Assembly (NCBI GenBank): GCA_947449035.1
Contig: CANFQC010000006.1
Span: 20,991 to 84,990 of the forward strand
From: Actinomycetota bacterium
GTDB lineage: Bacteria > Actinomycetota > Actinomycetes > S36-B12
Length of the DNA stretch: 64,000 nt
Direction of reading: 5' to 3'
The notes under the pieces were generated by a model. It searched no databases. It was given only the letters and a program-made list of their open reading frames with translations, and was not told the origin of the DNA. A program made the translations under genes and the position numbers. Positions 34,212 to 61,413 of the stretch are shown here, in pieces. The stretch's first letter is position 1. Every line of letters starts with the position of its first letter.

Positions 34212-35030
34212 ATGACGACTCCTGCGCGCTGCGATAGCGCACGAGTCGACATCGCGCTCGTATGCGGCGGGCGCTGGCATGACTTTGACTACGCGCGACT
34301 TCGGTTGCTGCAGTGGCTCGAGACTCATGACAGCGTCCGCTGCAGCGTTTACTCCGACTTCACGCAGATCGAAGCGATCTGCGCCGCCGATGCCGTGATC
34401 GCTTACACCTGCGATGTGCGCCCCTCCCAGGTGCAGGCAGCACTTCTGCGAGATCGCATCGCGGCGGGCGGACGACTCCTCGCCCTGCACGCGACTAACT
34501 CGGCCATCGATGCACCCGAGCCCGGCGGGGAGCGCATTTTTCGCACGCCTGACGTAATGCCGACCTTCACTGATTTGCTCGGCAATCGCTTTCTGGCACA
34601 TCCAAAGATCGCCGAATATGCAATCGAAGTGCGCGACCCCTCGCATCCTCTCGTCGCAGGCCTCGCCGACTTCCGCACGACGGACGAGATCTACGTGAGC
34701 GAGATCGCTGACGATCTGCAGGTCATCCTTGACACTGAATATGACGGCCCGTGCGCCGGCTTCGAGACCGAGAGCGTGCCCGGTCGCACGCGCCACCCGA
34801 TCCTCTACACGCGCTCGGAGGGCTCAGGTGAGGTCACCTACTTCACCCTCGGCCACTGCCGCGGGCGATTCGATATCTCCGACATGGGAGTCGATGACCT
34901 CGGAGTCATCGACCGCATCGCCTGGGATTCACCCGAATTTCTCGAGATCATGCAAAGGTCGGTGGCCTGGGCAGTGCACGGAAATAGTTGGAGCAACTGC
35001 TCCGCAACAAGCGAAGGAGCATCAGAATGA
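34212..35030 (+). CDS. ThuA-like domain protein
   Basis: IALVCGGRWHDFDYARLRLLQWLE; GGRLLALHATNSAI; FLAHPKIAEYAIEVRDPSHPLVAGLADFRTTDEIY; GEVTYFTLGHCRGRFD. Confidence 0.85.
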   Translation: MTTPARCDSARVDIALVCGGRWHDFDYARLRLLQWLETHDSVRCSVYSDFTQIEAICAADAVIAYTCDVRPSQVQAALLRDRIAAGGRLLALHATNSAIDAPEPGGERIFRTPDVMPTFTDLLGNRFLAHPKIAEYAIEVRDPSHPLVAGLADFRTTDEIYVSEIADDLQVILDTEYDGPCAGFETESVPGRTRHPILYTRSEGSGEVTYFTLGHCRGRFDISDMGVDDLGVIDRIAWDSPEFLEIMQRSVAWAVHGNSWSNCSATSEGASE

Positions 35031-35785
35031 GCGATCGCGGAACTGCGGTAGTCACCGGAGCCGGCCAGGGCATAGGCAAGGCCATTGCCGCGCGGCTTGT
35101 CGCCGACGGCTACGACGTGCTCGCCGTCGACGTGAATGCCGAGCAGGTCACTGCCACAGCCAATGAGCTCGGCTGCCGCAGTGCAGTCGCCGATGTCTCC
35201 GACCCCGCTCAGATCACCGCTCTTGTCGCGCTTGCGCCGAAGTGCACTGCGCTCATCAACAATGCGGCCATTCAGAAGTACCAGGACCTCCTGCACACCA
35301 CCGCCGAAGAGATGCGCCAGATCTTCGACGTGAATGTCATCGGCCCAATCCTGCTCGCACAGGCCTTTGTCCCAGTCATGGCCGCCAACGGCGGCGGAAA
35401 CATCGTGAACTTCAGTTCGATCACTTCGCAGGCGCATCCCGAGGGAGTCTCGGTCTACCCGGCATCAAAGGCCGCGATCAACCAGATCACCGAAGGCATG
35501 GCCCAAGAGTTTGGCCGTCTCGGCATTCGCGTGAACTCCATTGGCCCTGGCACAGTCATGACCGAAGGCACCGCTGGCCATTACGGAGACGCAGCAGCGC
35601 AGGGCGCCATCGCCGGCTGCTTACCGATTGCGCGCATGGGTCAGCCCGATGACATTGCAAATGCGGTGAGCTTCTTCTGCTCCGACGAGGCCTCCTGGGT
35701 CACCGGTCAGACCCTGTACGTCGACGGCGGTCACCTTGCGGCTCATGGTGCGTTCTTCCGCTGGGCGCGCAAGGTTCCGAAGTAA
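35027..35785 (+). CDS. SDR family oxidoreductase
   Basis: GTAVVTGAGQGIGKAIAARLVADGYDVLAVD; YPASKAAINQ; start at MSDRGTAVV. Confidence 0.93.
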   Translation: MSDRGTAVVTGAGQGIGKAIAARLVADGYDVLAVDVNAEQVTATANELGCRSAVADVSDPAQITALVALAPKCTALINNAAIQKYQDLLHTTAEEMRQIFDVNVIGPILLAQAFVPVMAANGGGNIVNFSSITSQAHPEGVSVYPASKAAINQITEGMAQEFGRLGIRVNSIGPGTVMTEGTAGHYGDAAAQGAIAGCLPIARMGQPDDIANAVSFFCSDEASWVTGQTLYVDGGHLAAHGAFFRWARKVPK

Positions 35786-35835: not shown

Positions 35836-36810
35836 ATGTCCGTGAAGCCCTTCCGCTTTGCCATTCAGGCGTACCGCAGTGAGTCGCGCGCCGCGTGGGT
35901 TGATCTCGCGCGCAAGACCGAGGATCTCGGCTACGACACCCTCTTCCTTGCCGATCACTACCTCGGCCCAGGCGAGATGATCGACACCACTGGTCACCGC
36001 GTGCAGACCCTTGCCTCCATCCCGGCCATGACAGCAGCCGCCATGGTGACAAGCACCGTGAAGATCGGCTCGCGCATGACCTGCGTCAGCTACCACCTGC
36101 CGACGATCCTGATCAAGGAGATGGCGTCAATTGACGTGCTCTCCGAGGGCCGCCTCGAGATCGGGCTCGGTGCTGGCTGGCTGGTCAAGGAGTATGAAGC
36201 GCTGGGCATTCCTTTCCCGTCTGCCGGGGAGCGCATCGCTCTGCTGCGCGAGACTGTCGAGTGCATGAAAGCGGCCTACTCGGGTGAGCCGCTTGATTAC
36301 CGCGGCGAGTACGTGACGTCCTACGGCTACACCGCCGTGCCGCCTGTTATTCAGCGCCCGCATCCTCCGATCATTATCGGCGGTGGCGCACCCAAGGTGC
36401 TCGGCCTGGCCGGCGAGCACGCCGACATCGTCTCGATCAACTTCAACAACAGCGCTGGTGTAGTCGGTAGCAACTCGATCGCGAGCTCAACAGCCGACGA
36501 GACCGATAAGAAGATCCAGTGGGTCCGCGACGGCGCCGGTGATCGATTCGACGAGATCGAGCTCGAGACCGCGCTCTACTTCGTGTCGGTCGAGGGGCGT
36601 TCCGAGATCACTGCAGACGCCCTGATCGCACGCACTGGTCTCTCACGCGAGGAGATCGTTGATTTTCCGCATGCGGCCGTCGGAAGTGTCGACGAGATCT
36701 GCGAGGCTCTCATTCGTCGACGTGAGCGCTACGGGTTCTCGTACATCACCGTGGGCGATGCCAACATCGATGCATTCGCGCCGGTGATCGAGAAGCTGAA
36801 GGGCAAGTAA
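35836..36810 (+). CDS. LLM class F420-dependent oxidoreductase
   Basis: DLARKTEDLGYDTLFLADHYLGPG; IGSRMTCVSYHLPTILIKEMASIDVLSEGRLEIGLGAGWLVKEY. Confidence 0.92.
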   Translation: MSVKPFRFAIQAYRSESRAAWVDLARKTEDLGYDTLFLADHYLGPGEMIDTTGHRVQTLASIPAMTAAAMVTSTVKIGSRMTCVSYHLPTILIKEMASIDVLSEGRLEIGLGAGWLVKEYEALGIPFPSAGERIALLRETVECMKAAYSGEPLDYRGEYVTSYGYTAVPPVIQRPHPPIIIGGGAPKVLGLAGEHADIVSINFNNSAGVVGSNSIASSTADETDKKIQWVRDGAGDRFDEIELETALYFVSVEGRSEITADALIARTGLSREEIVDFPHAAVGSVDEICEALIRRRERYGFSYITVGDANIDAFAPVIEKLKGK

Positions 36811-37613
36811 TGCACAAGTACTCACTCGCGCACCTCTCGATGATCGAGACTGCGCCGATCCAGGTCGTGCAAGCGGCAGCCGCAGCGGGTTTCGACTACA
36901 CGGGCTTCCGACTCACGCCGACGGCTTCAGGCATCGATCACGGCATCATCGGCAATGGTGCAGCGATCCGCGAACTTAAGGCAGCTATCGACGACTCGGG
37001 CGTGGGAATCCTCGATCTCGAGGTGCTGCGCCTTAAGGACTCCGGCCCCACCACTGACCCGATGCCGCTCTTCGAGGCGGCGGAGTATCTCGGTGCGCGT
37101 TACGTGATCACCACCCTCGAGGATCCCGACCCGGTACGACGTGTCGACTCGCTCGCACTACTCGCAGAGCAGGCCGCCGAGTATGGAGTCGGCCTCTCGG
37201 TAGAGTTCATGCTCTTCTCGTCGGCACCGAATCTCGCTGCGGCCTGCGAGGCGGTGGAGGCGTGCGGCGCCGCTAATGTCGTCGTGTTGCCTGACGTCTT
37301 GCATCTCACTCGCTCCGGTGGCACTCCTGATGACATGCTCGATTACCCGGCTCGTCTGTTCCCTTACGTGCAGATCTGCGGTGCGAATGGTCCGGGTGCA
37401 GCAGCTGATGCCGTGTCCGCGAGGACTGAAGCAGTGAACGCTCGCCTCATGCCTGATCAGGGCGATCTCCCGGTGCAGGAGTTCATCGAGTGCGCGCCTG
37501 CCAGCACGATTCTCAGCGTCGAGACTCCGCTCGTGGGCCTCGGAAATCCGGAGGATCCTGCGGCACTTGCCGTCGAGCTTCTCGCATCCGCGCACCGCGC
37601 AGCAGGGGAGTGA
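36810..37613 (+). CDS. sugar phosphate isomerase/epimerase-like TIM-barrel protein
   Basis: AP endonuclease 2-like barrel: VVQAAAAAGFDYTGFRL...GVGILDLEVLRL...LLAEQAAEYGVGLSVEFMLFSSAPNL. Confidence 0.8.
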   Translation: MHKYSLAHLSMIETAPIQVVQAAAAAGFDYTGFRLTPTASGIDHGIIGNGAAIRELKAAIDDSGVGILDLEVLRLKDSGPTTDPMPLFEAAEYLGARYVITTLEDPDPVRRVDSLALLAEQAAEYGVGLSVEFMLFSSAPNLAAACEAVEACGAANVVVLPDVLHLTRSGGTPDDMLDYPARLFPYVQICGANGPGAAADAVSARTEAVNARLMPDQGDLPVQEFIECAPASTILSVETPLVGLGNPEDPAALAVELLASAHRAAGE

Positions 37614-37615
37614 CC

Positions 37616-38362
37616 ATGGCGCGCGAACGCGAGCTCAGCATTGATGGCATGTCGAATGTCCGTGATCTCGGCGGTCTGCCCACCCGTGATGGCAAGAAGA
37701 TCAAGGCTGGCGTCGTGGTGCGCAGTGACAATCCGAAGGGCATAACCGAGCAAGGTCACATCGATCTGATGGCCGTAGTTGGGCCGCGCACCATGATCGA
37801 CCTTCGCATCGAGGTCGAGGTCGAGCATGATGGCTACACGATCAAGGATGAGTCAGTCACCGTCGTCAACTTCCCGATGCTGCCGCTCTCCGGCGTTACT
37901 CAGGAGCAGATCGACGCAGGTGCCTTCGACAACTTGATCGATGACTACATGGGTCAGATTGAGATCAATGGTGAATCAGTGCTGAGTGCCTTACGGATCA
38001 TCGCCTCGAGCGATCAACACCCGGTGCTCTATCACTGCACGGCGGGCAAAGATCGCACCGGAATTGTGACGGCGATGCTGCTCGACATTCTCGGTGTGGA
38101 ACACGAGACCATCGCGGCTGACTACCACCTGACTACAGAGAACATGCTGCCGATCATCGAGCGCATTCGTAATGCCCCGGTCTACAAGGAGAACGGCCTG
38201 GCGTATGCGCCGGCTTGGATCTTCTCCTCGGACCCGGAGACCATGCTGGCGTTTCTCGAGCGGATGACCGCGAAGTACGGCAGTGCCGAGGGCTGGGCTT
38301 TGCAGCGTGGACTGACCCAGGATGAAATCGATGCAATTCGCGAGCACCTGCTCGAGCAATAG
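37616..38362 (+). CDS. tyrosine-protein phosphatase (Y_phosphatase3-like)
   Basis: SNVRDLGGLPTRDGKKIKAGVVVRSDN; active-site YHCTAGKDRTGIVTAMLL. Confidence 0.9.
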   Translation: MARERELSIDGMSNVRDLGGLPTRDGKKIKAGVVVRSDNPKGITEQGHIDLMAVVGPRTMIDLRIEVEVEHDGYTIKDESVTVVNFPMLPLSGVTQEQIDAGAFDNLIDDYMGQIEINGESVLSALRIIASSDQHPVLYHCTAGKDRTGIVTAMLLDILGVEHETIAADYHLTTENMLPIIERIRNAPVYKENGLAYAPAWIFSSDPETMLAFLERMTAKYGSAEGWALQRGLTQDEIDAIREHLLEQ

Positions 38363-38418: not shown

Positions 38419-39177
38419 CTACGAGATCGTCTCGCCGCCGTCGACGATGAGGGTCTGGCCTGTGATGAACGATGCGTCGCTGCTCAGGAAGAAGCAGATC
38501 GCGGCCGCGAGCTCGTCGGCGGTGCCCATGCGCTTCATCGGAATAGCGGCGCCGAAGACTTCCTCACCCTTTGTCATGTCGCCACCGCGCTGAATCATGA
38601 GCGGGGTGGTCATCCCGGTGATTGTGCGGCCAGGAGCGATGCAGTTGATCCGCACCTCCGGCAGTGCTTCAAGGCTGAATTGGCGGGTGATGCCGGTGAT
38701 CGCGGCCTTCGCGGCGCCGTAGGGGACGTTGTTGTTGTTCGCCATGAAGGCGGCAGTGGAGGCGATCGTGACGATTGAGCCGTTGCCGCGTGCCTTCATC
38801 ACTGGGGTCACGTACTTACAGACGTAGAAGGTGCCGCCCACGTGAACCTCAAGCATCTTGTTGAAGCGCGCGGTATCCCATTCGGCGCTCGGCCCGAACT
38901 CGGCGTGGCCACCTGCGGCGAGTGCGACGTCAATACCGCCGAACTCCGCGACGGTCGCATCAACGGCGGCCTTCACCTGGTTCTCGTCGGCGACATTTGC
39001 GCCGAGGCCGATGGTGCCGTGGCCGATCTCTGCTGCGACGGCCTGGGCCTTGGCGAGGTCGAGGTCGACGAGAGCGGCCTTGCCTCCTTCGGCAACTACG
39101 CGCTCAGCTGTAGCGCGACCGATGCCACTGGCGCCGCCGGTGACGAAGAGGACCTTGTTCTCGAAGCGATTCGACAC
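38419..39177 (-). CDS. SDR family oxidoreductase
   Basis: KVLFVTGGASGIGRATAERVVAEGGKAALVD; YGAAKAAITG; GQTLIVDGGETIS. Confidence 0.93.
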   Translation of the reverse strand: MSNRFENKVLFVTGGASGIGRATAERVVAEGGKAALVDLDLAKAQAVAAEIGHGTIGLGANVADENQVKAAVDATVAEFGGIDVALAAGGHAEFGPSAEWDTARFNKMLEVHVGGTFYVCKYVTPVMKARGNGSIVTIASTAAFMANNNNVPYGAAKAAITGITRQFSLEALPEVRINCIAPGRTITGMTTPLMIQRGGDMTKGEEVFGAAIPMKRMGTADELAAAICFFLSSDASFITGQTLIVDGGETIS

Positions 39178-39232: not shown

Positions 39233-39763
39233 CTAGTGATCTGAGCCGGAGGGGGAGTCGCTGGGGCGCGCGCCCTCGGCCTTGGCCCACATCTTGGCGC
39301 TGTCGAAACCAATGCGGGTGACGGGAACAAGCTCGAGTACCAGGCGACCGGGGGAGTCGATCATGGCGAGGAACGCAGCGGCCTTCTCGGGCTCACCAGG
39401 GCGCATGGCGTCGGCGAACTGAGGGAGGATGCGATCGAGGGTCTCGCGATCGTCATGAATGATCGCCTCGCACTTGTAGGTGATCGACTGGCGCTCGGTG
39501 ACGCGCGATCCCTTGGAGGAGATTGCGATGCTCATGCGGGGATCCTGGCGAATCGACTTCACTCGCGGACGCTCCTCGCTGACCGTCAGCCAGAAGCGCT
39601 CCTCGCGGTAGATGAAGTTCACGACCACGCCCATCGGCCATCCATCTTTACCGGCCCAGATCATGGTGCACTCGGTCTGAGCGTCGAGTAACTCAAGTTC
39701 GGTACCAGAATCTAGGGAGTAACTCTTGACGTTTTCCCAGTTCTTCGCCTGCTCGGCAGCCAT
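39233..39763 (-). CDS. pyridoxamine 5'-phosphate oxidase/F420-binding split-barrel family protein
   Basis: GWPMGVVVNFIYREERFWLTVSEERPRVKSIRQDPRMSIAISSKG; start at MAAEQAKNW. Confidence 0.82.
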   Translation of the reverse strand: MAAEQAKNWENVKSYSLDSGTELELLDAQTECTMIWAGKDGWPMGVVVNFIYREERFWLTVSEERPRVKSIRQDPRMSIAISSKGSRVTERQSITYKCEAIIHDDRETLDRILPQFADAMRPGEPEKAAAFLAMIDSPGRLVLELVPVTRIGFDSAKMWAKAEGARPSDSPSGSDH

Positions 39764-39817
39764 GATTTCCCTCTCGAAATGCCCTGAATCGGGTCGTCCG
39801 TAGGCTCTCATGGATTG

Positions 39818-39840
39818 AAGGTAATTTCTATAGTTACCTT
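39818..39840. promoter_or_regulatory. inverted repeat in divergent promoter
   Basis: AAGGTAA-tttctatag-TTACCTT between 39763(-) and 39902(+). Confidence 0.55.
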
Positions 39841-39901
39841 GCATAAACTCCCCAGTGTTCCTAGGGTCATCGAGCACCCCCCCGCGCCCCGAAGGAGTCC
39901 C

Positions 39902-40348
39902 ATGGCACTCGATCTACAGACCATCTCCGATCGCATGGAGATCGACGACCTGCTGCAGAGCTACTCCCGCGCAGTCGACTCGAAGGACTGGGACGCCGTC
40001 GAGGCCACCTTCACTGTCGATGGTGAGTACGACGCCGGCTCCCTGGGTCACCCCATGAGCGGCAAGGCCGTGCGGGAGATGATCGAGGGCGCCCTCAGCA
40101 CCGTCGATTCCACCCAGCATCTGGTCGCTAAGAGCCTGATCGAGGTGCACGGGGATACCGCCGATGTGCGCACCTACCTGATCAGCCAGCACATCCGCGA
40201 ATCAGCGCCCACCGAGGTCAAGCACTACTTCATCGGCGCCGAATATGTCGACCGCGTCGTTCGCACCCCCGAAGGCTGGAAGTTCGCCTATCGTCGCCTT
40301 GATCGCATGTGGAAAGAGGGCGATCGCGCGGTCATCGCCCGCGGCTAG
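39902..40348 (+). CDS. SnoaL/NTF2-like nuclear-transport-factor-fold protein
   Basis: QTISDRMEIDDLLQSYSRAVDSKDWDAVEATFTVDGEYDAG...WKFAYRRLDRMW. Confidence 0.85.
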   Translation: MALDLQTISDRMEIDDLLQSYSRAVDSKDWDAVEATFTVDGEYDAGSLGHPMSGKAVREMIEGALSTVDSTQHLVAKSLIEVHGDTADVRTYLISQHIRESAPTEVKHYFIGAEYVDRVVRTPEGWKFAYRRLDRMWKEGDRAVIARG

Positions 40349-40404: not shown

Positions 40405-42066
40405 ATGGAACGCTGGATCGCCGATACTGAGCCCCTGGAGCGGTTCCCGATCTTCACCCGCGGCAATGCCGACGAGGTAGGCCCCGATCCGTTCAGCCCG
40501 CTCAACTGGACCCTGGCCTGGGAGCAGGGCGTCGTACCCGGCACCGCCTGGGGCTGGATCCACATGGGCACCTTCAAGGAGAACGAGTTCATCTGGACAA
40601 AGCCAGAGACCTACGGCTCCTGGGGCGGCTACTTCTACAACCAGGTGTCGGTCGGTCGCGTCTTCGGCCACCGCATGCCCGGCCTGACCGCCGATGCCAT
40701 TGACGTCACCTTCTTCGGCCAGAACCCGGTCGTGCCGCCGTATGTCGAGGATCCCCGCGATAACGACGAAGAGTGCTCGGCTGCACTGGGCGAGACCTTC
40801 GGCGGCATTCTCGGCGGCAGTCAGCAGCCGATGCTCGATGAGTTCCTTGTCCAGGTCGAGGAGTGGGTGGCCTCTCGTCCGGATCTCGCCTCGATCAGCG
40901 ACGCCGAGCTCGTCGAGTACGGCCGCGTGATGGCGAAGCGCCAGAACCGCACCTGGGATGTCTACGCGCAGGTCGTCATCGGTGCCACGGTTGGCCCGTC
41001 GATCGTCTCCGGCATTGCCGAGGCAGTCGGCAAGCCCGAGCTCGCCATCCGCATCTTCGCCGCACTCGGCGAGGTGGCATCCGCAGGTCTGCCTGAGCGA
41101 GTATGGGAGCTCTCTCGTCTCCCGCAGGATTCGCCTGAGTTCAAGACAAAGTTCGATGCGTTGATCAAGCAGTTCGGTCATCGCGGCGTCAATGAGTGGG
41201 AGCTCAGCGCAGACACCTGGGCCATTAACCCCAAGCTCGCCTACGAGATGATCGATCGGGTTCGCCAGCAGGACGCCAGCATGTCGCCGGCAGTCCGCAC
41301 GGCCATTGCGCTCGAGCAGCGTCACGCTGCTGAGGCTGAGCTCACCGCCGCGGTTGCCGGTGATGAGGCAACTGCGGGCTTGCTCGCTGCCGGTATCGCT
41401 GCCGGGCAGGCGGCCTACCGCAACCGCGAGGCCGGCAAGAACGCGGCCGTGAAGTTGTTCGGCGAGCCGAAGCTGGCCTTCCAAGAACTGGGTCGTCGCA
41501 TGGCCGAGCGCGGCGTGATCGCGGAGCAGAAGCACATCTTCATGCTGCTCGACTCCGAGCTCGATGGTTTCCTCGCGAACCCCGACGGCTGGTCACCCAA
41601 GCTCGCCGAGCGCTACGGCCAGTGGCTAGAGCTCTTCGAGCTCGATCCGCCCTACGTCGTCATGCACGGCACGCCCATTCCGCCGATCAGCGAATGGCCG
41701 AAGAAGAAGGATCGCGGCGGAGCGGCCGAGGCCGTGGGTGCGGTAGTTCAGGGCGTCCCCGGATCACCCGGCACTGTCACGGCGAAGACCCGCTACATCA
41801 GCGATCTCTCGCATGCCGATGAGCTCGAGGTCGGCGAGATCCTGGTCTGCTCGACCACTGATCCGTCGTGGGTGCCGCTGTTCATGATTGCCAGCGCCGT
41901 GATCTGCGAAATCGGTGCACCGGGCAGTCACGCGGTGATCGTCAGCCGTGAGCTTGGTGTTCCCTGCGTCGTCTCGGCTGCAGGTGCCAGCTACAAGCTT
42001 CCGACCGGCACCCTTGTCGATCTTGATGGCTCGACCGGCAGCATCACGGTCGTCGAGACCGCGTGA
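40405..42066 (+). CDS. PEP-utilising enzyme 'mobile' (phosphohistidine swivelling) domain protein, paralog 1, no ATP-grasp domain
   Basis: C-terminal GEILVCSTTDPSWVPLFMIASAVICEIGAPGSHAVIVSRELGVPCVV; candidate catalytic His codon at 41929-41931. Confidence 0.82.
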   Translation: MERWIADTEPLERFPIFTRGNADEVGPDPFSPLNWTLAWEQGVVPGTAWGWIHMGTFKENEFIWTKPETYGSWGGYFYNQVSVGRVFGHRMPGLTADAIDVTFFGQNPVVPPYVEDPRDNDEECSAALGETFGGILGGSQQPMLDEFLVQVEEWVASRPDLASISDAELVEYGRVMAKRQNRTWDVYAQVVIGATVGPSIVSGIAEAVGKPELAIRIFAALGEVASAGLPERVWELSRLPQDSPEFKTKFDALIKQFGHRGVNEWELSADTWAINPKLAYEMIDRVRQQDASMSPAVRTAIALEQRHAAEAELTAAVAGDEATAGLLAAGIAAGQAAYRNREAGKNAAVKLFGEPKLAFQELGRRMAERGVIAEQKHIFMLLDSELDGFLANPDGWSPKLAERYGQWLELFELDPPYVVMHGTPIPPISEWPKKKDRGGAAEAVGAVVQGVPGSPGTVTAKTRYISDLSHADELEVGEILVCSTTDPSWVPLFMIASAVICEIGAPGSHAVIVSRELGVPCVVSAAGASYKLPTGTLVDLDGSTGSITVVETA

Positions 42067-42776
42067 CGGTCAAGACTCCGCCGACACCTCCTGAGCCGCC
42101 GTTCAGCGTCCGTGAGCCCTTTCTCATTGGGGTAGACGGAGTAACGCGAGTCACGTTCTGCCGTCATGCCCAGCAGGCGTACCCCGTCTCTGATGAGTTC
42201 GTGCATGACGACTGGGCTGATCCACCGCTGAGTCCCCTCGGCGAGGTGCAGGCGCACGCGCTTGCCGCTGCGCTGGGCGAAGAAGAGATCGATGTCGTGA
42301 TTTGCAGCACGATGAAGCGTGCGCGCCAGACCGCGGCGATGGTCGCGAGCCCACATGGGCTCGAGCCGGTCGTGATTCCCGAACTCCGCGAGATCGACTC
42401 GTATCGTGATCTCGAACCGGGCATGAACCCGCAGTCTCTCGTGGACCCGGCCGAGTGGAAGCGCCGCGAGGATCTCTTCCGAATCGAACGCAAGTGGGAT
42501 CACATGTTCTTCGGTGAGTCCTCGGCAGAGTTCCGGGCTCGCTGCCTCGGAGCCATCGACAAGGTTCTCGCCCAGTTCGAGGGAAAGAACATCGTGTTCA
42601 TCAGTCACGGAGGCGTCATCAACGCCTTCTTTGCGAACGTCATCGGCTGCGATGAGGATCTCTTCTTCCTGCCCAATCACGCCTCGATCAGCACTGCTGC
42701 GGTCAAGGGCAATATCCGAAGAATGACGTCAATTAATGAGCATCACCACTTGCATGCGGGCATCCTGACCGACTAG
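42063..42776 (+). CDS. histidine phosphatase family protein
   Basis: VTFCRHAQQAYPV (RHA in place of RHG); PPLSPLGEVQAHALAAAL; ICSTMKRARQTA; FISHGGVINAF; GTG start. Confidence 0.88.
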   Translation: MTVKTPPTPPEPPFSVREPFLIGVDGVTRVTFCRHAQQAYPVSDEFVHDDWADPPLSPLGEVQAHALAAALGEEEIDVVICSTMKRARQTAAMVASPHGLEPVVIPELREIDSYRDLEPGMNPQSLVDPAEWKRREDLFRIERKWDHMFFGESSAEFRARCLGAIDKVLAQFEGKNIVFISHGGVINAFFANVIGCDEDLFFLPNHASISTAAVKGNIRRMTSINEHHHLHAGILTD

Positions 42777-42831
42777 AAAGTCATCTAGACGAATTTCTGG
42801 TGCCTATGGGGGCCGCTAGTCGAGGAGTGCC

Positions 42832-44040
42832 ATGACAGACACCGTTCCGCAGTATGCGGCAGGTTCGCACAGCGCCCTGGATCGAGATGAAGCGCTGTCG
42901 ATCATGGATCGACTGTTCGCTCACCTGGCGAACAACTCCACAGACATGGCCCCTGAGCAGCTCGAGATCCCGATGTCGTATTACCTGGACGAGGATCTCT
43001 GGAAGCAAGAGATGCAGGAGATCTTCTACAAGATCCCGCTGCCCGTGGCGATGTCAGTCGCGCTGCCTAATCCGGGCGACTTCAAGGCCATGCGCGTTGT
43101 CGGCCGCGAGATCATCCTTTCGCGCGGCAAGGACGGCCGTATGAATGCGATGCTCAACGTCTGCCGTCATCGTGCGATGAAGCTCGTGCCTGAGGGCTGT
43201 GGCAACGCGCGCCGGTTCACCTGCGGCTATCACGCATGGACCTACGACACTGACGGAAAACTTACCGGTGTTCCGGCTGAAGACACCTTCGGCGATGTCG
43301 ATCGCGATGAATACAGCTTGGTGCGCCTGGCCTGCGAGGAACGCGCCGGCATCATCTTTGTCTGTCTGACCGCCGGGCGAGAGATCGACGTCGATGCTTG
43401 GCTCGGCGATGCCCTGCCACATCTTGAACGTCTCGAACTCGATAAGTGCGTGCACTTCACGACCAAGGAGCTCGCTGGCCCGAACTGGAAGGTCACCCTC
43501 GACGGTTATCTAGAGAGCTACCACTTCTCGACTCTGCATCCCGACACGGTGGCACTGACCAACCACACGAATCGCGCAACATTTGATGCCGTTGGCCCGC
43601 ACTGCCGAAATGTGTTCGCACTCAAGTCAATGGATGCCATGGCTGAGACTGCGCGCGATGAGTGGGAGCCGGCTGCAGCACTTGGTCTCATCTACTGGCT
43701 GTTCCCCGGCATGTCTATCGCCGGTGGAATGCGCGAGCGCACTGTCGTCTCGATCATCTTGCCTGGCGACTCGTGGGGTGAATCGATGACATGGCAGACC
43801 ACATTGATGCGACGTGCGCCAGAAACCGCGGCTGAACTCGAAGAGGCCGAGAAGACGGCTGACTGGTTCTTTGCCGCATTCCGCGACGAGGACTACGCCG
43901 CCCAGCAACTGGTGCAGGACGGCCTTGCCACTCTTGCCGACAAGCACATGATCATCGGCCGCAACGAGATCGCAGTCCAGCACGCCCATGAGTCTGTGCG
44001 TCGCCTGATGAACGGTGAGCCTGTTCACGAGCCTCGCTAG
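42832..44040 (+). CDS. Rieske 2Fe-2S aromatic ring-hydroxylating oxygenase alpha subunit-like
   Basis: Rieske CRHRAMKLVPEGCGNARRFTCGYHAWTY; mononuclear iron site LDGYLESYHFSTLH. Confidence 0.92.
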   Translation: MTDTVPQYAAGSHSALDRDEALSIMDRLFAHLANNSTDMAPEQLEIPMSYYLDEDLWKQEMQEIFYKIPLPVAMSVALPNPGDFKAMRVVGREIILSRGKDGRMNAMLNVCRHRAMKLVPEGCGNARRFTCGYHAWTYDTDGKLTGVPAEDTFGDVDRDEYSLVRLACEERAGIIFVCLTAGREIDVDAWLGDALPHLERLELDKCVHFTTKELAGPNWKVTLDGYLESYHFSTLHPDTVALTNHTNRATFDAVGPHCRNVFALKSMDAMAETARDEWEPAAALGLIYWLFPGMSIAGGMRERTVVSIILPGDSWGESMTWQTTLMRRAPETAAELEEAEKTADWFFAAFRDEDYAAQQLVQDGLATLADKHMIIGRNEIAVQHAHESVRRLMNGEPVHEPR

Positions 44041-44157
44041 GGGAGTCCCGCGCGACTGTGACCTCTTTGTGAGGATTTTGCAGGGACTTCCAGGTATCTG
44101 ACTGGCAGAATGACGTGGCCCCCACCGGGGCGTTCCCTGCGACAGATGGATACCCGC

Positions 44158-45858
44158 ATGACCAAGGCATGGCTTACCGATACCGAGCCCAGCGCTCGCT
44201 TCCCCGTCTTCACTCGCCTGAACGCGGCCGACGTGATGTCCGAACCGATCACCCCGCTGGGTGCATCGATGTGCTGGATCCCGAATGTGCTGCCGGGCTG
44301 GGCCTCGGGCTACGTCGAGGACGTCTGCTTCACCTCCGATGAGCTCACCGATGAGTCGGCTGTCGCTGGCTTCTTCTACGGCTACCTCTACGTCAACCAG
44401 AGCTCGGTGCGCGTGCTCGGCATCCGCAAGGGCATGGGCTGGGAGACCATCGACGCGATCTTCTTCAACTCACCCGGCGCTCCCGCTCACGCGACGTCGC
44501 CTGCTGACGAGAACCCTGCTCTGACTGCACTGGCCCCGGCACGTGCCGGTTGGGCACTCACCACCTCCAAGTTCGAGGGCGCCGATGAAGACGAGGCAAT
44601 TGCTGACGACCTGCGTCGCAATCGTCCGAACCTTCGTGGCATGAGCAACCGTGCGCTCGTTGCACGCGCTCGCTCGGTCATGCCGTACGAGCGTCTTGCC
44701 TGGCGCTCGGAGCAGATCGGCTCTTCCAACGCGGCGCTCGGCCCGGCCGTCGCCGGCCAGATCCTCGGTGACAAGGCGCATCTGCTTGTCACGATCCTCG
44801 GCTACGCCGGTGATGTCGAGTCCGCAGCGCCGACCTACTCGCTGTGGTCGCTGTCGCGCACGGTCAAGAACGACCCGAAGATGACCGCGCTGTTCGACAG
44901 TGGCGTCGACAAGGTTGTCGCGCAGCTGCCGACCGCGCGTGGTGGCTTCTGGAGCGACTTCGCTGCCTTCATTGCAGAGTTCGGCTACCGCGGCCCGAGT
45001 GAATGGGATCTTGGCACCGAGTCATGGGAGTCCAAGCCGTCACTGGCCCTGGGTCTCATCGATCGCATGCGCCAGCTTGATGATGCCGATTCGCCCTCGT
45101 CAAAGCAGGCCGCGCACGCGGCGGCCACCGACAAGGCGATGATGGAAGCGACTGCAGGCATGGACCCGGCAACCGAGGCTGCCTTCCGTGGCGCCGTCGG
45201 CTCGGCCCGTCGCTTCGCCGGCTGGCGTGAGAGTGGCAAGAGCTCATGTATCAAGATCATGAACGAGGCACGCATGGCCCTCATCGAGCTAGGTGAGCGT
45301 CTTGCTGCCAAGGGCGTTCTCGATCATTCGCGCCAGATCTTCATTGCTCTCGATGAGGAGCTCGACTCCCTCGCTCTGGAGGAGACCACCTTGCGTCCGG
45401 TTCTCGCCCAGCGCGAGAAAGAGTGGAATGCACTCAAGGAGCTCGAGGTTCCGACCTTCCTTGATGGCTCCAAGCCGATCCCGCCAATCTCCGAGGTTCC
45501 CCGCAAGGGCGCCAACAAGGCCGAAAAGGCAGCCAAGGGCACCATCCTCACCGGTGCCGCAGCCTCGACCGGCATTGTCGAGGGCGTGGCCCGAGTCATC
45601 ACCGGCACCGATGCGATCAGCGAGTTCCAGCCCGGCGAGATCCTGGTCGCACCGCAGACTGATCCGTCGTGGACCCCGCTGTTCATGGTGGCCTCGGCTG
45701 TCATCGTCGACACCGGTTCGATGGGCTCGCACGCGATGATCGTCGCTCGCGAACTCGGAATCCCGTGCGTCGCCGGCTTGCCGAAGGCAACGGAGATGAT
45801 CGGCACCGGCACGATGGTGCGCGTCGACGGCGCTGCAGGCACGGTCGAGATTCTCTAG
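44158..45858 (+). CDS. PEP-utilising enzyme 'mobile' (phosphohistidine swivelling) domain protein, paralog 2, no ATP-grasp domain
   Basis: WLTDTEPSARFPVFTRLNAADV matches paralog 1 WIADTEPLERFPIFTRGNADEV; GEILVAPQTDPSWTPLFMVASAVIVDTGSMGSHAMIVARELGIPCVAG; His codon 45730-45732. Start may be 44146. Confidence 0.82.
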   Translation: MTKAWLTDTEPSARFPVFTRLNAADVMSEPITPLGASMCWIPNVLPGWASGYVEDVCFTSDELTDESAVAGFFYGYLYVNQSSVRVLGIRKGMGWETIDAIFFNSPGAPAHATSPADENPALTALAPARAGWALTTSKFEGADEDEAIADDLRRNRPNLRGMSNRALVARARSVMPYERLAWRSEQIGSSNAALGPAVAGQILGDKAHLLVTILGYAGDVESAAPTYSLWSLSRTVKNDPKMTALFDSGVDKVVAQLPTARGGFWSDFAAFIAEFGYRGPSEWDLGTESWESKPSLALGLIDRMRQLDDADSPSSKQAAHAAATDKAMMEATAGMDPATEAAFRGAVGSARRFAGWRESGKSSCIKIMNEARMALIELGERLAAKGVLDHSRQIFIALDEELDSLALEETTLRPVLAQREKEWNALKELEVPTFLDGSKPIPPISEVPRKGANKAEKAAKGTILTGAAASTGIVEGVARVITGTDAISEFQPGEILVAPQTDPSWTPLFMVASAVIVDTGSMGSHAMIVARELGIPCVAGLPKATEMIGTGTMVRVDGAAGTVEIL

Positions 45859-45870
45859 ATCTACCTCGTT

Positions 45871-45902
45871 AATGGCCCGACACCGTGTGGTGTCGGGCCA
45901 TT
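45871..45902. terminator. intrinsic terminator-like hairpin after paralog 2
   Basis: AATGGCCCGACACC-gtgt-GGTGTCGGGCCATT, perfect 14-bp stem. Confidence 0.75.
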
Positions 45903-45997
45903 GGCATTCCTGGGGTTTTGCTCCTGGCCTGCCTGCAGTGACTCCTCGGCGGTGCGGCATGATGGAAGTCGGTATCCGGCATCGTCAGGGGAAGTTT

Positions 45998-46438
45998 GTG
46001 AGTGAGTCCAGGGGTTCATCGGTCATCGTCCACCGCTTGGTGGCCTGGAATGAGACCGATGCAGCGGGACACAACCACTTTGCTGCCGCCTTTCGGTGGC
46101 TAGAAGAGGCTGAGCATGCGCTCCTGCGCTCAGTAGGCATGCCTGTCGAGGAGATCGCCCGCATTCCGCGCGTGCACATCGACATCGATTACAAGGATCG
46201 CCTGTACTTCGGCCAGGAGATTGCCGTGCAGGTCACCGTGGCAAAGGTGGGCACGAGCTCATGCACGTATGACTTCGAGGTTCGCACCGAAGCAGGTGTG
46301 GTGGCGGTGAGCGGCACCCTCGTGGTCGTGCATGCGTCAAGTACCTCCGAGGGCTCTGCCCCGTGGCCCGACGATATTCGTGAGGCGTTGCTCGATGGTC
46401 GGCTCATCGAGGTTCGCACTGAGACCACGCAGGCCTGA
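45998..46438 (+). CDS. hotdog-fold acyl-CoA thioesterase (4-hydroxybenzoyl-CoA thioesterase-like)
   Basis: HRLVAWNETDAAGHNHFAAAFRWLEEAEHALLRSVGM...VHIDIDYKDRLYFGQEIAVQVTVAKVGTSSCTYDFEV; GTG 45998 preferred, ATG 45959 possible. Confidence 0.85.
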   Translation: MSESRGSSVIVHRLVAWNETDAAGHNHFAAAFRWLEEAEHALLRSVGMPVEEIARIPRVHIDIDYKDRLYFGQEIAVQVTVAKVGTSSCTYDFEVRTEAGVVAVSGTLVVVHASSTSEGSAPWPDDIREALLDGRLIEVRTETTQA

Positions 46439-52200: not shown

Positions 52201-53805
52201 TCAGCCGGTGAGTCCGGTGATCATGGCGGCAAGCTGCTTACCGTGCTCATCGGCGAGCGCCGCCTGACGAAGCAGCGCTACTTGCTGCGCTGCATCGCTG
52301 CGGTTGGACACAGCGGGGAGTACCCGCATGATTTCGTTGAAACTGTGCATGCCACGGGCGTGTGTTTCGCCGTAGCCCTTGACGAGCTGCTGGCACTCCA
52401 CGATCTCGCAGGCGAGTGCATAGTTCGTGGCGGCGTATTCCCGCACCGTGGTGAGCCAGGTATCAATACGAGCCTGCTCGAGGCCGAAGCGCAGCGAGCG
52501 ACGACGGATCGGGCGGCAGCGGGCCATCGTGTACAGCATCGTGTACCCCCAGACCGATGTGGTCTGGAGCTTGATGCCCTTATGCGTAACCCGATGGATG
52601 ACCTTGTTGGCTGCCTTGGAGTTGAGCACCCAGCGGCCAAGTCCGGTGGGCAGCGTGTCAGTGATCTCCTCGACCTGCGGATGCAGATACTCGCGCACCT
52701 GCATCATCTGCTCGTCATTGACTCGAGCTTCCTTGCCGACGCGGTCAAAACGGCGAGCGCGGGTCTTATGGAAGGCCACTCGGATCGTGTCCTCGTAAGT
52801 CATCCACAATGCCGTGAAGCGCGCAGTCTCGGTGGTCAGGCGTGCATCGCCGTCGGGGTCGATCTCGAAAGCGGTGATCGAGGCAACTCTGTCCAAGTAC
52901 TCGTCTGCGTACCTGACGTCCTGGTACTCAGCAGTGCGCTTGATGCCGTTGACAAGCATGTGTCGCGAGGCCGCAGGGAAGGCGCTGATGCGCTCTGCCT
53001 GCGATGCGATCTTGCTGCCGACGAGGGCAGCAGGATTGACGATGGCGAGATCGACCTCGGCGGTGTGTGCGAGTTCGGCAGCGATGGCCTCCTCGACCTC
53101 GGCCGGGCGTGAACCCAGCGAGAGCTCGACTACCGGTCGCTGCGAGGCTGCCGCGACACGGAAGCCCTCCGAGAAAGCTCGCAAACTCGACTCGACACCC
53201 TTGCCACCTGAGCGGATGGCCTCTTCGAACTGCTCGCGAGTGAACGGCAAGGTGCCTGATGCCGCGATGGCGCCAAACAGCACAGCGCTGATGACAGAGC
53301 CGGTCTCGTCGGCGATACGTGCGAAGTCTCCGCGCCAGAATGACTTCGAGGCACCCAATGCAGCGTCGATGATCTCCTGGGAGTCAATGCGACCGTCACC
53401 CATGGCGGTGCGCTCAGGCATCGCGTAGGTACGACTCGTGGAGGCAATGAGCACGCTTCGATCAGGGGTGCAGAAGCCACGCTGAATTGCGCGACCGGCC
53501 TCCATCAGTTCAGAAGCCACCACGACGTCGACCTCGCCAGGTGTGGGCATGGTGCTCAGTACGGGGTAGCGCGGATTCGGGGAATCCTCGCGGGGAAAGA
53601 GCTCGACGTAGTAGACGGTGGCGCCGGTGCGCTGGGCGACGCCAGGCACTGAAGTGCTCTGGGCGAACCAGCCATTGTGCTCGGAGAGTGCCACGATCCA
53701 ATCGGAGAGCACGCCGCCGCCTTCACCGCCCATGGCGAGGATTGCCATGTTGATGGGTCGAGTGCGTCCAGCAGTGGCGGGGTTCGCCTGGGTCATCATC
53801 GTCAT
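52201..53805 (-). CDS. iorB: indolepyruvate:ferredoxin oxidoreductase beta subunit-type protein with C-terminal extension
   Basis: INMAILAMGGEGGGVLSDWIVALSEHNGWFAQSTSVPGVAQRTGATVYYVELFPR; 534 aa. Confidence 0.87.
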   Translation of the reverse strand: MTMMTQANPATAGRTRPINMAILAMGGEGGGVLSDWIVALSEHNGWFAQSTSVPGVAQRTGATVYYVELFPREDSPNPRYPVLSTMPTPGEVDVVVASELMEAGRAIQRGFCTPDRSVLIASTSRTYAMPERTAMGDGRIDSQEIIDAALGASKSFWRGDFARIADETGSVISAVLFGAIAASGTLPFTREQFEEAIRSGGKGVESSLRAFSEGFRVAAASQRPVVELSLGSRPAEVEEAIAAELAHTAEVDLAIVNPAALVGSKIASQAERISAFPAASRHMLVNGIKRTAEYQDVRYADEYLDRVASITAFEIDPDGDARLTTETARFTALWMTYEDTIRVAFHKTRARRFDRVGKEARVNDEQMMQVREYLHPQVEEITDTLPTGLGRWVLNSKAANKVIHRVTHKGIKLQTTSVWGYTMLYTMARCRPIRRRSLRFGLEQARIDTWLTTVREYAATNYALACEIVECQQLVKGYGETHARGMHSFNEIMRVLPAVSNRSDAAQQVALLRQAALADEHGKQLAAMITGLTG

Positions 53806-53832
53806 GTCAGTTCATTCCTCGTCGATCGTGGT

Positions 53833-56007
53833 TCAGGACGCAGCCGGCTCGATGCCGGTCAGTCGGCGCTCAATCCCACGCTGCAGCATTCCGATGTACC
53901 AGCGTCGGACGGCGAGCTTGGTGCGGTCCCAGCGGCTCGGGTTGGTGATGATCTGCGTCTGGTAGAACGACGGGCACAGTGCCGCTGCATGCGCATTCTC
54001 GCCACACAGGCCGCAGCCCACGCACGAGCTGATCACCTGGGCAATCGGATCGGTGCGCATCGGGTCAGGGTTATCGGCGATCGTGAGCGACGGGCAGCCT
54101 GAGATGCGGATGCACGAGTGATCGCCGGTGCAGGTCTCGGGGTCGACACCGAAGCGCTCGCGCACGACGCGCTTGCCTTCCTTGGCCGCCTTCGCCATTG
54201 CCGGCTTCTCGCGACGCATGCGGTTCAGGGTGCACTCGCTCTGGGCGATGATCACCTTGGGGCCGGCGTCGTCGCTGGTAAGTGCCTCCTTGAAGAGATC
54301 ACGCATCTCGTCGACCTTGTAGGTGTTCGTGGCGGTACGCGCCCACTTCACGCCGATACCTCTTACCGCAGCCTCGATCGGGTGCTTGGTGGAGCGAATC
54401 GGATTGTCTGCTGCAGAGGACAGCACGTCTTGGCCACCTGTGGCGGCGCTGTAGGCGTTGTCGACGATCACCAGCAGTTGGTCGTTCTCGTTGAAGACGG
54501 CGTTGCCCACGCCTGAGGTCAGGCCGTTATGCCAGAAGCCGCCGTCGCCCATCACGGCGATCGGACGCTTCATCGCACCCGATCCATTGAGTGCTGAAGC
54601 GGCAGCCGAGCCCAGGCCGTAGCCCATGGTGGTGGCGCCGATATTGAAAGGCGCATTGATGCTGAACAGGTGACAGCCGATGTCGGCGCTCACGTAGTGC
54701 TCCCCAACCTCACGCTGGGCGAGAGTGAGTGCGGCGAAGATCGGACGCTCGGGGCAGCCTGTGCAAAAGCCCGGAGGACGACCTTGAACGAGGTCAGTAG
54801 CGATGCGCGGAGCAAGGGGGTAACGCGGATCGTCGGCAGGCAGTGCCAGTACCGGAAGTTCGACACCTTCGAGGGATTCAGGGGCGTACTTCTGCATGAA
54901 TGCCAGCACGCCCTTGGTGACTGCTGCGGGGGTGTACTCGCCTGCGACCGGGAGAACGTCCTTGCCATGCAGCTTCACGGTGGCGTCGTTTCGGCGAAGC
55001 ACGGCCTGGATGTTCTGCTCGATGTAGTCGGGCTGACCCTCTTCGACGAGGAGCACCGCACGCTTGCCCTTGCAGAACTCGACAACCTCGTCGTCGATGA
55101 CGGGGTAGGTGACGTTCATGATGTACAGGGGAATCTTGCTCTCGCCGTAGATATCCGAGAGACCGAGAAGCTCGAGTGCTCGGTTGACGTTATTGAACAG
55201 GCCACCTTGCAAGATGATGCCGATGTCCTGGCCTTCACCCGGCAGATACTCGTTGAGCTTGTTCTCCTTGATGAATTCGACGGCAGCGGGCCACCTCTTG
55301 GTGAGCTTCTCTTGCTCATGTGCGAAATTCATCGGGGGCAGCACGATGCGGCTGAGATCGCGCTCGGGGTTCTCGACGGCTTCCTTGATGGTCATCTTCG
55401 GACGCTTGTTGTCCTTGGCGATGAACGACCCGTGCAGATGGCACGAGCGCAGGCGCAATTCGAGGATCACAGGGGTATTGCTTGCCTCGGAGAGTTCGAA
55501 GCCCTTCTCGACCATGTCGACGATGGCGGTCAGGTTCGGCCTCGGATCCAGCAGCCACATCTGCGACTTCATCGCGAAGGCGTGGGTGCGCTCCTGCATG
55601 ATGCTGGAGCCCTCTCCGTAGTCCTCACCGATGATGACGAGCGCACCACCACGCACGCCACCCGAGGACAGGTTCGCGAGAGCGTCTGAGGCCACGTTGA
55701 AGCCGACCGTTGACTTGAACGTGATGGCGCCACGAAGCGGGTAGTGCACCGAGGCGCCGAGCATGGCGCCAGCAGTCGCCTCGGACGCACTGTTCTCGAA
55801 GTAGATATCGAGCTCGTCGAGGATCTCCTGCGCATCGCCGAGAACATCCATCAGATGCGAGATGGGAGCGCCCTGGTAGCCACCCACATAGGACACACCT
55901 GACTGCAGCAGGCCCTTGGTGACGGCGAGGATGCCCTCGCCGTGGAACTCCTGGCCCTCGCCAATGCGCAGGGCCTTAACCTCGGTGGCAAATGAGCGTT
56001 CAGCCAT
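53833..56007 (-). CDS. iorA: indolepyruvate:ferredoxin oxidoreductase alpha subunit (TPP-dependent)
   Basis: SYVGGYQGAPISHLMDVLGDAQEILDELDIYFENSASEATAGAMLGASVHYPLRGAITFKSTVG; RPPGFCTGCPERPIFAAL; C-terminal CVGCGLCGENAHAAALCPSF. Confidence 0.93.
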   Translation of the reverse strand: MAERSFATEVKALRIGEGQEFHGEGILAVTKGLLQSGVSYVGGYQGAPISHLMDVLGDAQEILDELDIYFENSASEATAGAMLGASVHYPLRGAITFKSTVGFNVASDALANLSSGGVRGGALVIIGEDYGEGSSIMQERTHAFAMKSQMWLLDPRPNLTAIVDMVEKGFELSEASNTPVILELRLRSCHLHGSFIAKDNKRPKMTIKEAVENPERDLSRIVLPPMNFAHEQEKLTKRWPAAVEFIKENKLNEYLPGEGQDIGIILQGGLFNNVNRALELLGLSDIYGESKIPLYIMNVTYPVIDDEVVEFCKGKRAVLLVEEGQPDYIEQNIQAVLRRNDATVKLHGKDVLPVAGEYTPAAVTKGVLAFMQKYAPESLEGVELPVLALPADDPRYPLAPRIATDLVQGRPPGFCTGCPERPIFAALTLAQREVGEHYVSADIGCHLFSINAPFNIGATTMGYGLGSAAASALNGSGAMKRPIAVMGDGGFWHNGLTSGVGNAVFNENDQLLVIVDNAYSAATGGQDVLSSAADNPIRSTKHPIEAAVRGIGVKWARTATNTYKVDEMRDLFKEALTSDDAGPKVIIAQSECTLNRMRREKPAMAKAAKEGKRVVRERFGVDPETCTGDHSCIRISGCPSLTIADNPDPMRTDPIAQVISSCVGCGLCGENAHAAALCPSFYQTQIITNPSRWDRTKLAVRRWYIGMLQRGIERRLTGIEPAAS

Positions 56008-56056
56008 TGTTGCTCTTTCCTCGATGATGGTGCGGAGTATCAGTAATGCAGGTGTG

Positions 56057-57127: not shown

Positions 57128-57129
57128 CG

Positions 57130-58236: not shown

Positions 58237-58308
58237 ATGTCTCACCCCTATATATGTGTCTCTGGCGGGTATTCCGTGGGGGAAGCCCACGAAAAGGCTA
58301 CCGTGATC

Positions 58309-58320
58309 TTTGATCAAATG
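58309..58320. promoter_or_regulatory. TTTGATCAAATG element in divergent gentisate dioxygenase/nitrilase promoter
   Basis: Contains perfect 10-bp palindrome TTTGATCAAA; 11 nt shared with 47397-47407. Confidence 0.5.
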
Positions 58321-58370
58321 CTACCCTTTATCGAATCCTCCCGAATGGGAATCAACTGAAGGCGAGTCCG

Positions 58371-59369: not shown

Positions 59370-59398
59370 CTTCACCAACCAACATCAGGAGAAATCGC

Positions 59399-60298: not shown

Positions 60299-60299
60299 C

Positions 60300-61055: not shown

Positions 61056-61062
61056 TTCACGC

Positions 61063-61100
61063 ACAAGGCCCGCTGCCCCCGTAGGGGTAGCGGGCCTTGT
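61063..61100. terminator. intrinsic terminator-like hairpin between convergent genes
   Basis: ACAAGGCCCGCTgCCCC-cgta-GGGGtAGCGGGCCTTGT. Confidence 0.75.
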
Positions 61101-61125
61101 CGTGTCAGGGGGAGTGTGAAGCAGG

Positions 61126-61413
61126 CTAGAAGCCGCCTTCCGTTCCAATCGAGAACCCAGCCTCGATGTCTTCCTTGAGGTAGGTCTTGAACGCGATGTG
61201 TGTTTCGGTCGAGACGATGCCCGGCACGATGCCGATCTTGTCGTTCACGATGCGGGCGACCTCGTCGTGGTCCTTGACCGTGATGATGACGACGAGATCG
61301 ATCTTGCCGGTGACCGAGTAGACAGTGGCGACGCCGGGAACCCGAGTCAGGGCCTCGCCGACCTCGTTGATGTGTCCGGACTTGACCTGGAGAAAGCACA
61401 GCGCTGTCAGCAT
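61126..61413 (-). CDS. stand-alone Lrp/AsnC ligand-binding (RAM) domain protein
   Basis: LTALCFLQVKSGHINEVGEALTRVPGVATVYSVTGKIDLVVIITVKDHDEVARIVNDKIGIVPGIVSTETHIAFKTY; no HTH. Confidence 0.85.
   Translation of the reverse strand: MLTALCFLQVKSGHINEVGEALTRVPGVATVYSVTGKIDLVVIITVKDHDEVARIVNDKIGIVPGIVSTETHIAFKTYLKEDIEAGFSIGTEGGF

Follow-up and report, generated by a model that had tools for sequence, protein, structure and literature searches.

This locus raises the question of where two proteins that carry a phosphohistidine swivel domain, here called A and B, obtain their phosphate. The window, by which we mean the whole stretch of 64,000 nucleotides analysed, comes from a freshwater actinobacterium (draft genome G000, 97.7% complete). 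Both open reading frames are present on its forward strand with plausible start codons, A at 40405..42066 (553 aa) and B at 44158..45858 (566 aa). As the original prediction had it, they are twin phosphohistidine paralogs, with the codon of the catalytic His at 41929 in A (His509) and at 45730 in B (His525); their identity is 34-37% over the full length. Pfam places a PEP-utilisers mobile domain (PF00391) at the C-terminus of each (A, E 1e-19; B, E 4e-24) and gives no other match above cut-off, PPDK_N included.

Acceptor and swivel domains of A and B

The AF2 model of A (pLDDT 72, pTM 0.72) was searched with Foldseek, where rifampin phosphotransferase (RPH) was the sole full-length match (5fbu; E 3.6e-14, TMq 0.65, about 594 alignment columns); B matched RPH by phmmer (E 3e-28). 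RPH (5FBS/5FBT/5HV1; PMC4844700) has an acceptor-binding domain and a C-terminal phosphohistidine swivel domain, as do A and B, but its chain also carries an ATP-grasp domain at the N-terminus, whereas A and B have no PPDK_N domain and occur as two paralogs per block. An ATP-grasp domain hidden in the N-terminal halves of A and B was rejected both by Pfam and by structure comparison, so the predicted lack of an N-terminal ATP-grasp or PPDK_N domain holds, and the N-terminal region, predicted to bind the acceptor, corresponds in A to the acceptor-binding domain of RPH. R341, E342, K345 and H509 of A and R357, E358, K361 and H525 of B align with RPH R666, E667, K670 and H825, and all four are invariant in the 19 A/B sequences aligned (19/19).

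A and B belong to a monophyletic ATP-grasp-less clade (support 100/99), whose catalytic members keep the R/E/K/H of RPH, with a K-to-R change in G035 and G057, and in which the swivel-loop GG of RPH is G[AS] throughout. A and B are ATP-grasp-less homologues of RPH, composed of an acceptor-binding domain and a phosphohistidine domain, a description of domain content and catalytic residues drawn from sequence or model. Two further A/B paralogs are encoded elsewhere in the genome, on contigs C44 and C69; "PEP-utilising" proteins without an ATP-grasp domain number four in G000 and four or more in G172. The sister of A in the tree is a paralog from G172, and B groups with the C44 paralogs, a split on which a recent tandem duplication was rejected; judged by this tree, A and B are old paralogs.

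The gene block around A and B

Between A and B lie the two genes that the original prediction had named. The histidine phosphatase (branch 1, RHA; 42063..42776, forward strand; PF00300, E 2e-34), whose first 4 bases overlap the end of A, keeps this position in related genomes too. The Rieske oxygenase alpha subunit (42832..44040, forward; PF00355 and PF00848, with a CxH...CxxH motif) is kept in most block carriers and is absent at the corresponding place in G008. Rieske genes also flank other A/B paralogs, as well as HpeHI-like kinases.

The genes upstream of A are conserved in the block. On the forward strand these are a ThuA-like protein (34212..35030; PF06283), a short-chain dehydrogenase (35036..35785; PF13561), an F420-dependent LLM-class oxidoreductase (35836..36810; PF00296, with TIGR03621 above cut-off), a xylose-isomerase-like TIM barrel (36810..37613; PF01261) and a second phosphatase, of the CX5R tyrosine-phosphatase family (37616..38362; HCTAGKDR; PF13350, E 2e-56). 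A second short-chain dehydrogenase (38419..39177; PF13561) and a divergent F420/PPOX-type flavin oxidoreductase-like protein (39233..39877; TIGR03618, below cut-off) follow on the reverse strand, and a SnoaL-like protein (39902..40348, forward; PF13577) lies directly upstream of A. Directly downstream of B is a YbgC/FadM-like thioesterase (45872..46438, forward; TIGR00051, below cut-off), a neighbour of B shown only within the window's genus (L019, L101).

The block recurs with the same gene order in genera g1, g2, g6 and g12 of the family, and the pattern is therefore not due to chance. No ATP-grasp fold was found in A, the His is kept and the neighbourhood is conserved, the three points on which the original prediction had staked itself. 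Its suggestion that the Rieske enzyme oxidises the phosphorylated substrate and that a phosphatase reverses or completes the step is plausible. CreD is a phosphohydrolase. The alkylphenol oxidation system is made up of CreH, CreI, the P450 CreJ and CreD (PMC9549646). Our literature searches on Rieske oxygenases with PEP-synthase-like kinases and on PEP-utilising/ATP-grasp neighbourhoods found nothing describing the A/B system.

Candidate donors of the phosphoryl group

As far as PPDK_N goes, the claim that no ATP-grasp gene lies in the window is correct; the genome has a single PPDK_N gene, elsewhere, on contig C16, and it encodes an ordinary full pyruvate phosphate dikinase (PPDK). No orphan ATP-grasp gene like that of phenylphosphate synthase, for which a search of the rest of the genome had been advised, was found. 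Stand-alone PPDK_N proteins of the HpeI/CreI/PpsB type were not found in three genomes of the genus (G000, G008 and G020), and a missing HpeI-like subunit was rejected on this basis. The two-component phenolic dikinases HpeHI, CreHI and PpsAB (PMC12167813) resemble the A/B system in their catabolic setting and in having an acceptor and swivel protein separate from the phosphate donor, but they possess an HpeI-like ATP-grasp subunit, whereas A and B show an RExxK motif and are accompanied by a Rieske oxygenase in place of a P450. HpeH-like modules with a nearby HpeI-like gene, which is close to its partner in every pair observed, carry a DHxF/NHNF-type motif at the acceptor site where A and B have RExxK, and this difference weakens the analogy with phenylphosphate synthase and, with it, the idea of a phenolic substrate. 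Of the split-phosphotransferase reading, the part that the RPH fold, the catalytic residues and the conserved neighbourhood support stands, while the orphan ATP-grasp and the phenolic substrate find no such support.

The best donor candidate is instead a PPDK paralog with a lost ATP site and an intact PEP site (G000:C24:25604-28132; 842 aa), here called the ATP-dead PPDK. It is 37% identical to the genome's own pyruvate phosphate dikinase over nearly the full length, and carries PF02896 (PEP-utilisers_C, E 8e-72) and PF00391 (E 1e-20). However, each of the nine orthologs compared has lost every core ATP-site residue examined (K22R, R92S, D321L/I/T, Q335G and R337E; 9/9), whereas His455 and the PEP residues R561, R617, E745, N768 and C831 are intact in every one of them; the psG017 row, an antisense ORF, was left out of the identity and residue tables. 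Purifying selection acts on the N-terminal region (dN/dS 0.01-0.10). Its best model is TIGR01828, below cut-off, the HPr-binding domain of Enzyme I (EI) is absent from it, and the region is a PPDK derivative. The AF2 model had a pLDDT of 33 (six near-identical sequences) and was not used, so that a PPDK-like fold of this region is predicted from homology only.

The ATP-dead PPDK is present in 14 of 14 block carriers and in 2 of 45 other genomes of the family sample (Fisher 9e-12, ignoring shared ancestry). Outside the window's genus most genomes have it next to the block; within that genus it is not adjacent (about 29 kb off in G020). G034 and G032 have it without a detected block, and both contigs end close to the locus. 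Five genomes (G172, G311, G094, G035 and G057) have A/B-type modules without it, so the ATP-dead PPDK is no general requirement of the module family.

The gene adjoining the ATP-dead PPDK (C24:28140-28754) encodes a protein of about 204 residues with three invariant histidines, which also accompanies the modules in the five genomes just named. Within the family this partner occurs in 16/16 genomes with modules against 6/43 others (6.8e-10, ignoring shared ancestry) and, in the phylum sample, in 8/8 module-bearing genomes from seven families against 27/297 overall (1.6e-9, ignoring shared ancestry). In G035 and G057 its gene neighbours the module in divergent orientation, and in G109 and G213 a truncated PPDK, the 204-aa protein and a module form one apparent operon. 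A PDB search with a profile of its family gave no significant match. It is of the same family as the 204-aa neighbours of PRK05878 genes, which encode truncated PPDKs of the VadK type; by operon position it is a putative counterpart of Rv1126c. VadK (Rv1127c, PRK05878) is a truncated PPDK of M. tuberculosis that autophosphorylates and was parted from its operon partner Rv1126c with 2 M NaCl (PMC13400623). Like the ATP-dead PPDK, VadK derives from PPDK and has a phospho-histidine of its own, and truncated PPDKs homologous to it are paired with members of the 204-aa family; VadK and the ATP-dead PPDK are nevertheless mirror images, VadK-type proteins having kept the ATP site and lacking the PEP domain.

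A putative PEP-fed relay and its alternatives

These genome comparisons suggest that A and B may receive phosphate from phosphoenolpyruvate (PEP) through a remodelled, ATP-dead enzyme, and on balance we favour the reading that they are subunits of a split RPH-type phosphotransferase fed by the ATP-dead PPDK with the 204-aa partner. PEP would charge the ATP-dead PPDK at its histidine, from where the phosphoryl group would pass to A (at His509) and B (at His525), directly or via the partner. The swivel of A or B would then carry it to a hydroxyl of the substrate, which the R-E-K triad would hold in place. Oxidation of the phosphorylated compound would fall to the Rieske enzyme, to the block's flavin and short-chain dehydrogenases, or to both, and its phosphate would later be stripped by the two phosphatases. 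ATP-site loss, the conserved block and co-occurrence come from sequence or model analysis; the direction of flow, the protein-to-protein transfer, the order of steps and the substrate we infer. Enzyme I of the PTS likewise uses a PEP barrel and a phospho-histidine domain as entry point, but the N-terminus of the ATP-dead PPDK is a degenerate PPDK ATP-grasp rather than an HPr-binding domain, and the PTS yields a transported sugar where the proposed relay would use RPH-like modules as acceptors and yield a phosphorylated metabolite. Transfer between histidines of two proteins, as from EI to HPr, is proposed here, and apart from that pair we know of no direct precedent for it between two swivel domains.

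That the intact C16 PPDK charges A and B with ATP in trans, the ATP-dead PPDK doing something else, is unlikely but has appreciable weight. No PPDK_N gene other than that on C16 is present in the genome, modules of other actinobacteria are paired with truncated PPDKs that are ATP-fed, and G172, G311 and G094, which have modules and the 204-aa partner, encode no strong PPDK_N protein apart from PPDK (an extra weak PPDK_N-like match in G172, G172:C1:1404276, falls in an 887-aa ORF unlike the reference set). PPDK is, however, nearly universal in the family while the modules are not, and it is the ATP-dead paralog that co-occurs with the block and adjoins it. The absence of an HpeI-like subunit from three genomes of the genus, the RExxK motif and the proximity of HpeI-like genes to their partners leave a classic two-component ATP dikinase of the PpsAB/CreHI/HpeHI type largely refuted already; although the acceptor and swivel architecture is the same and the genome is a draft at 97.7% completeness, an unassembled or too diverged ATP-grasp subunit is very improbable.

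We regard as improbable that A and B work without a protein donor, moving phosphate from one ester to another: HpeH alone does so from 4-phosphoacetophenone to acetovanillone (PMC12167813), but at a low rate and as a side activity in an enzyme that is driven by ATP, and this reading would leave unexplained why the ATP-dead PPDK and the 204-aa protein co-occur so tightly with A and B. Equally low is our estimate for a PPDK-derived regulator of metabolic enzymes that merely shares the locus, A and B acting otherwise. VadK, for which such a role was proposed, is reported to interact with methylcitrate-cycle enzymes (PMC13400623), and four genomes of the family (G006, G011, G023 and G030) have the 204-aa protein and a nearby PPDK_N gene with no module above threshold; yet the two are linked by the apparent operons of G109 and G213 and, in G035 and G057, by a 204-aa gene next to the module.

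A wider form of the favoured PEP-fed reading, which we put forward tentatively, is a second PEP-dependent phosphotransferase system, in which the ATP-dead PPDK would be the Enzyme I analogue, the 204-aa protein an adaptor or phosphocarrier, and interchangeable RPH-like modules would phosphorylate small molecules for catabolism. The donor could be swapped between ATP (VadK-type) and PEP, and VadK-type proteins of other actinobacteria would be module donors and not regulators only. If true, a widespread class of ATP-grasp-less "PEP-utilising" proteins would gain defined partners and an energy source, in a PEP-fed phosphorelay that ends on small molecules, draws its parts from central metabolism and mirrors the ATP-fed VadK. 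VadK/Rv1126c-type pairs would gain a testable biochemical role, and phospho-tagging of substrates would be linked with Rieske oxygenation, a recurrent association near other paralogs and HpeHI-like kinases. The first reading of this DNA had overlooked the second phosphatase (37616-38362), the C44 and C69 paralogs and the ATP-dead PPDK on C24.

Conserved block and RPH-like architecture of A and B

The window (G000:C6:20991-84990) derives from a draft, 2.36-Mb, 97.7%-complete genome (G000), in which PF00391 is the sole recognised domain, C-terminal, in both protein A (window 40405-42066, 553 aa) and protein B (window 44158-45858, 566 aa). From residue ~230 to the end, both align with the C-terminal part of rifampin phosphotransferase (RPH)-, PigC- and PRK06241-type enzymes (NCBIfam), with matches far under the equivalog cut-offs. 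The second-best NCBIfam match of A is PRK05865, an epimerase-type, Rv2047c-like family of 854 aa and possibly a further swivel protein that lacks ATP-grasp.

We compared an AF2 model of A, built from 19 sequences (mean pLDDT 72, pTM 0.72), with solved structures; those of RPH alone matched at full length, with ~594 columns aligned (5fbu, E 3.6e-14, TMq 0.65). Because RPH is the only such match, the N-terminal ~400 residues of A are, according to the model, the RPH acceptor-binding domain and not ATP-grasp, consistent with the acceptor-binding role originally predicted for this region. By phmmer alignment, R357, E358, K361 and H525 of B fall on R666, E667, K670 and H825, residues demonstrated to be important in RPH (PMC4844700). 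The four residues (R341, E342, K345 and H509 in A) are unchanged across 19 A/B sequences. A 24-residue stretch (alignment columns 253-276) is present in A of other genera and missing from the window's genus.

The gene order of the block is ThuA-like, SDR, F420 LLM oxidoreductase, TIM-barrel, CX5R phosphatase, SDR (minus strand), PPOX-like (minus strand), SnoaL-like, A, His-phosphatase, Rieske, B. The expected conservation of the two paralogs with phosphatase and Rieske genes was borne out, as this order recurs in genera g1, g2, g6 and g12 of the family; in one genome, G008, the Rieske gene is missing from its usual place. Since A clusters in the tree with a G172 paralog and B with the C44 paralogs, a recent duplication as the origin of A and B is ruled out. 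The window also holds a separate aromatic-CoA-type cluster (52201-63905), with indolepyruvate oxidoreductase-like genes, a cupin protein and a bifunctional salicylyl-CoA 5-hydroxylase/oxidoreductase (above cut-off), and a 640-aa protein fusing a sulfotransferase-like domain to DUF4915 (18593-20515).

Stand-alone modules in the RPH-like superfamily

A, B, two further ATP-grasp-less modules of G000 (C44, L053:7495-10791; C69, L054:1448-7342) group with relatives from G172, G311 and G094 in a single supported clade (100/99) within the RPH-like superfamily. Both further modules adjoin Rieske oxygenase genes, and the C69 locus also has a ferredoxin-reductase-like gene. Catalytic members of the clade retain R, E, K and H, with K replaced by R in G035 and G057; a C44-like module of G215 (L226:3424-5076) has Tyr in place of the catalytic His. 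The swivel loop reads G[AS] in this clade versus GG in nearly all ATP-fed relatives.

Stand-alone modules elsewhere are of two kinds: HpeH-like, with a DHxF/NHNF-type motif and a nearby stand-alone ATP-grasp gene (G079, G069, G168, G137, L104, L107), and RExxK-type, with no stand-alone ATP-grasp gene adjoining. Single chains of ~1510-1550 aa in G181 (L140:2829-7355) and G268 (L141:4481-9133) carry one ATP-grasp followed by two acceptor-plus-swivel modules, an arrangement indicating that one donor can serve two modules.

An ATP-dead PPDK as candidate donor and its putative 204-aa partner

G000 has a single PPDK_N gene, which lies on C16 and encodes an ordinary PPDK. Another PPDK-like gene, on C24 (25604-28132; candidate donor locus L055:2-10020), encodes 842 aa with PF00391 and PF02896, and no PPDK_N match was found in it. 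Among 59 family genomes, orthologs at at least 72% identity occur in 14/14 block carriers and 2/45 others (G032, G034; Fisher 9e-12, uncorrected for ancestry). Outside the window's genus the gene is usually a neighbour of the block: the ATP-dead PPDK and the 204-aa gene come first, followed by (a zinc ADH or OYE-like gene and) B, Rieske, His-phosphatase and A. In G020, ~29 kb of a single contig separate it from B.

In C. symbiosum PPDK numbering, the ATP residues are substituted in 9/9 orthologs (K22R, R92S, D321L/I/T, Q335G, R337E); all nine retain His455 as well as R561, R617, E745, N768 and C831 of the PEP site. Identity to real PPDK is 23% in the N-terminal region versus 50% in the PEP barrel. 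This N-terminal region is conserved among orthologs (dN/dS 0.01-0.10 where measurable). It is repurposed rather than in decay.

The adjoining 204-aa gene (C24:28140-28754) belongs to a family in which H105, H170 and H177 are invariant in all 44-49 alignment rows covering them. Within the bacterial family, 16/16 genomes with an RExxK module encode it versus 6/43 without (6.8e-10, ignoring shared ancestry), and so do, in the phylum sample, 8/8 genomes with catalytic RExxK stand-alone modules, representing 7 taxonomic families, versus 27/297 overall (1.6e-9, ignoring shared ancestry). The co-occurrences behind these statistics span several genera and families. The four HpeH-type genomes G079, G069, G168 and G137 lack the 204-aa gene, as does G215, where the module lost its His. 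In G035 and G057, which have no ATP-dead PPDK, the 204-aa gene adjoins the module in divergent orientation.

Elsewhere, the 204-aa gene adjoins truncated PPDKs (PRK05878, above cut-off), in which the ATP site is intact and there is no PEP domain. An apparent operon unites truncated PPDK, 204-aa gene and module in each of G109 and G213. VadK (Rv1127c), a truncated PPDK of M. tuberculosis, autophosphorylates, and its operon partner Rv1126c raises its solubility and is taken off with 2 M NaCl (PMC13400623). From its operon position, we infer that Rv1126c is a member of the 204-aa family.

Proposed phosphate route and substrate

The route best supported by these comparisons starts with PEP, which would charge the ATP-dead PPDK; this protein would in turn charge A and B, either by itself or through the 204-aa protein. 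A and B would pass the phosphate to a hydroxyl, after which the phosphorylated compound would be acted on by the oxygenase and dehydrogenases and released by phosphatases. For the modules of G172, G311, G094, G035 and G057 the donor must be a different one, probably intact PPDK. The Cre alkylphenol system, in which CreHI and CreD have roles, shares the kinase-oxidase-phosphatase logic proposed for the block. It provides a precedent for such logic (PMC9549646).

The RExxK motif of A and B favours an RPH-like acceptor rather than a phenol. A monosaccharide-type ABC transporter and PDH-E1-like genes at the candidate donor locus, where a zinc ADH gene also lies, hint weakly at a polyol- or sugar-like substrate. 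As Rieske genes adjoin C44 and C69 and lie near HpeHI-like pairs, phospho-tagging ahead of Rieske oxygenation may recur. In L104, L106 and L107, these pairs consist of ATP-grasp and kinase genes and are followed by the Rieske oxygenase gene.
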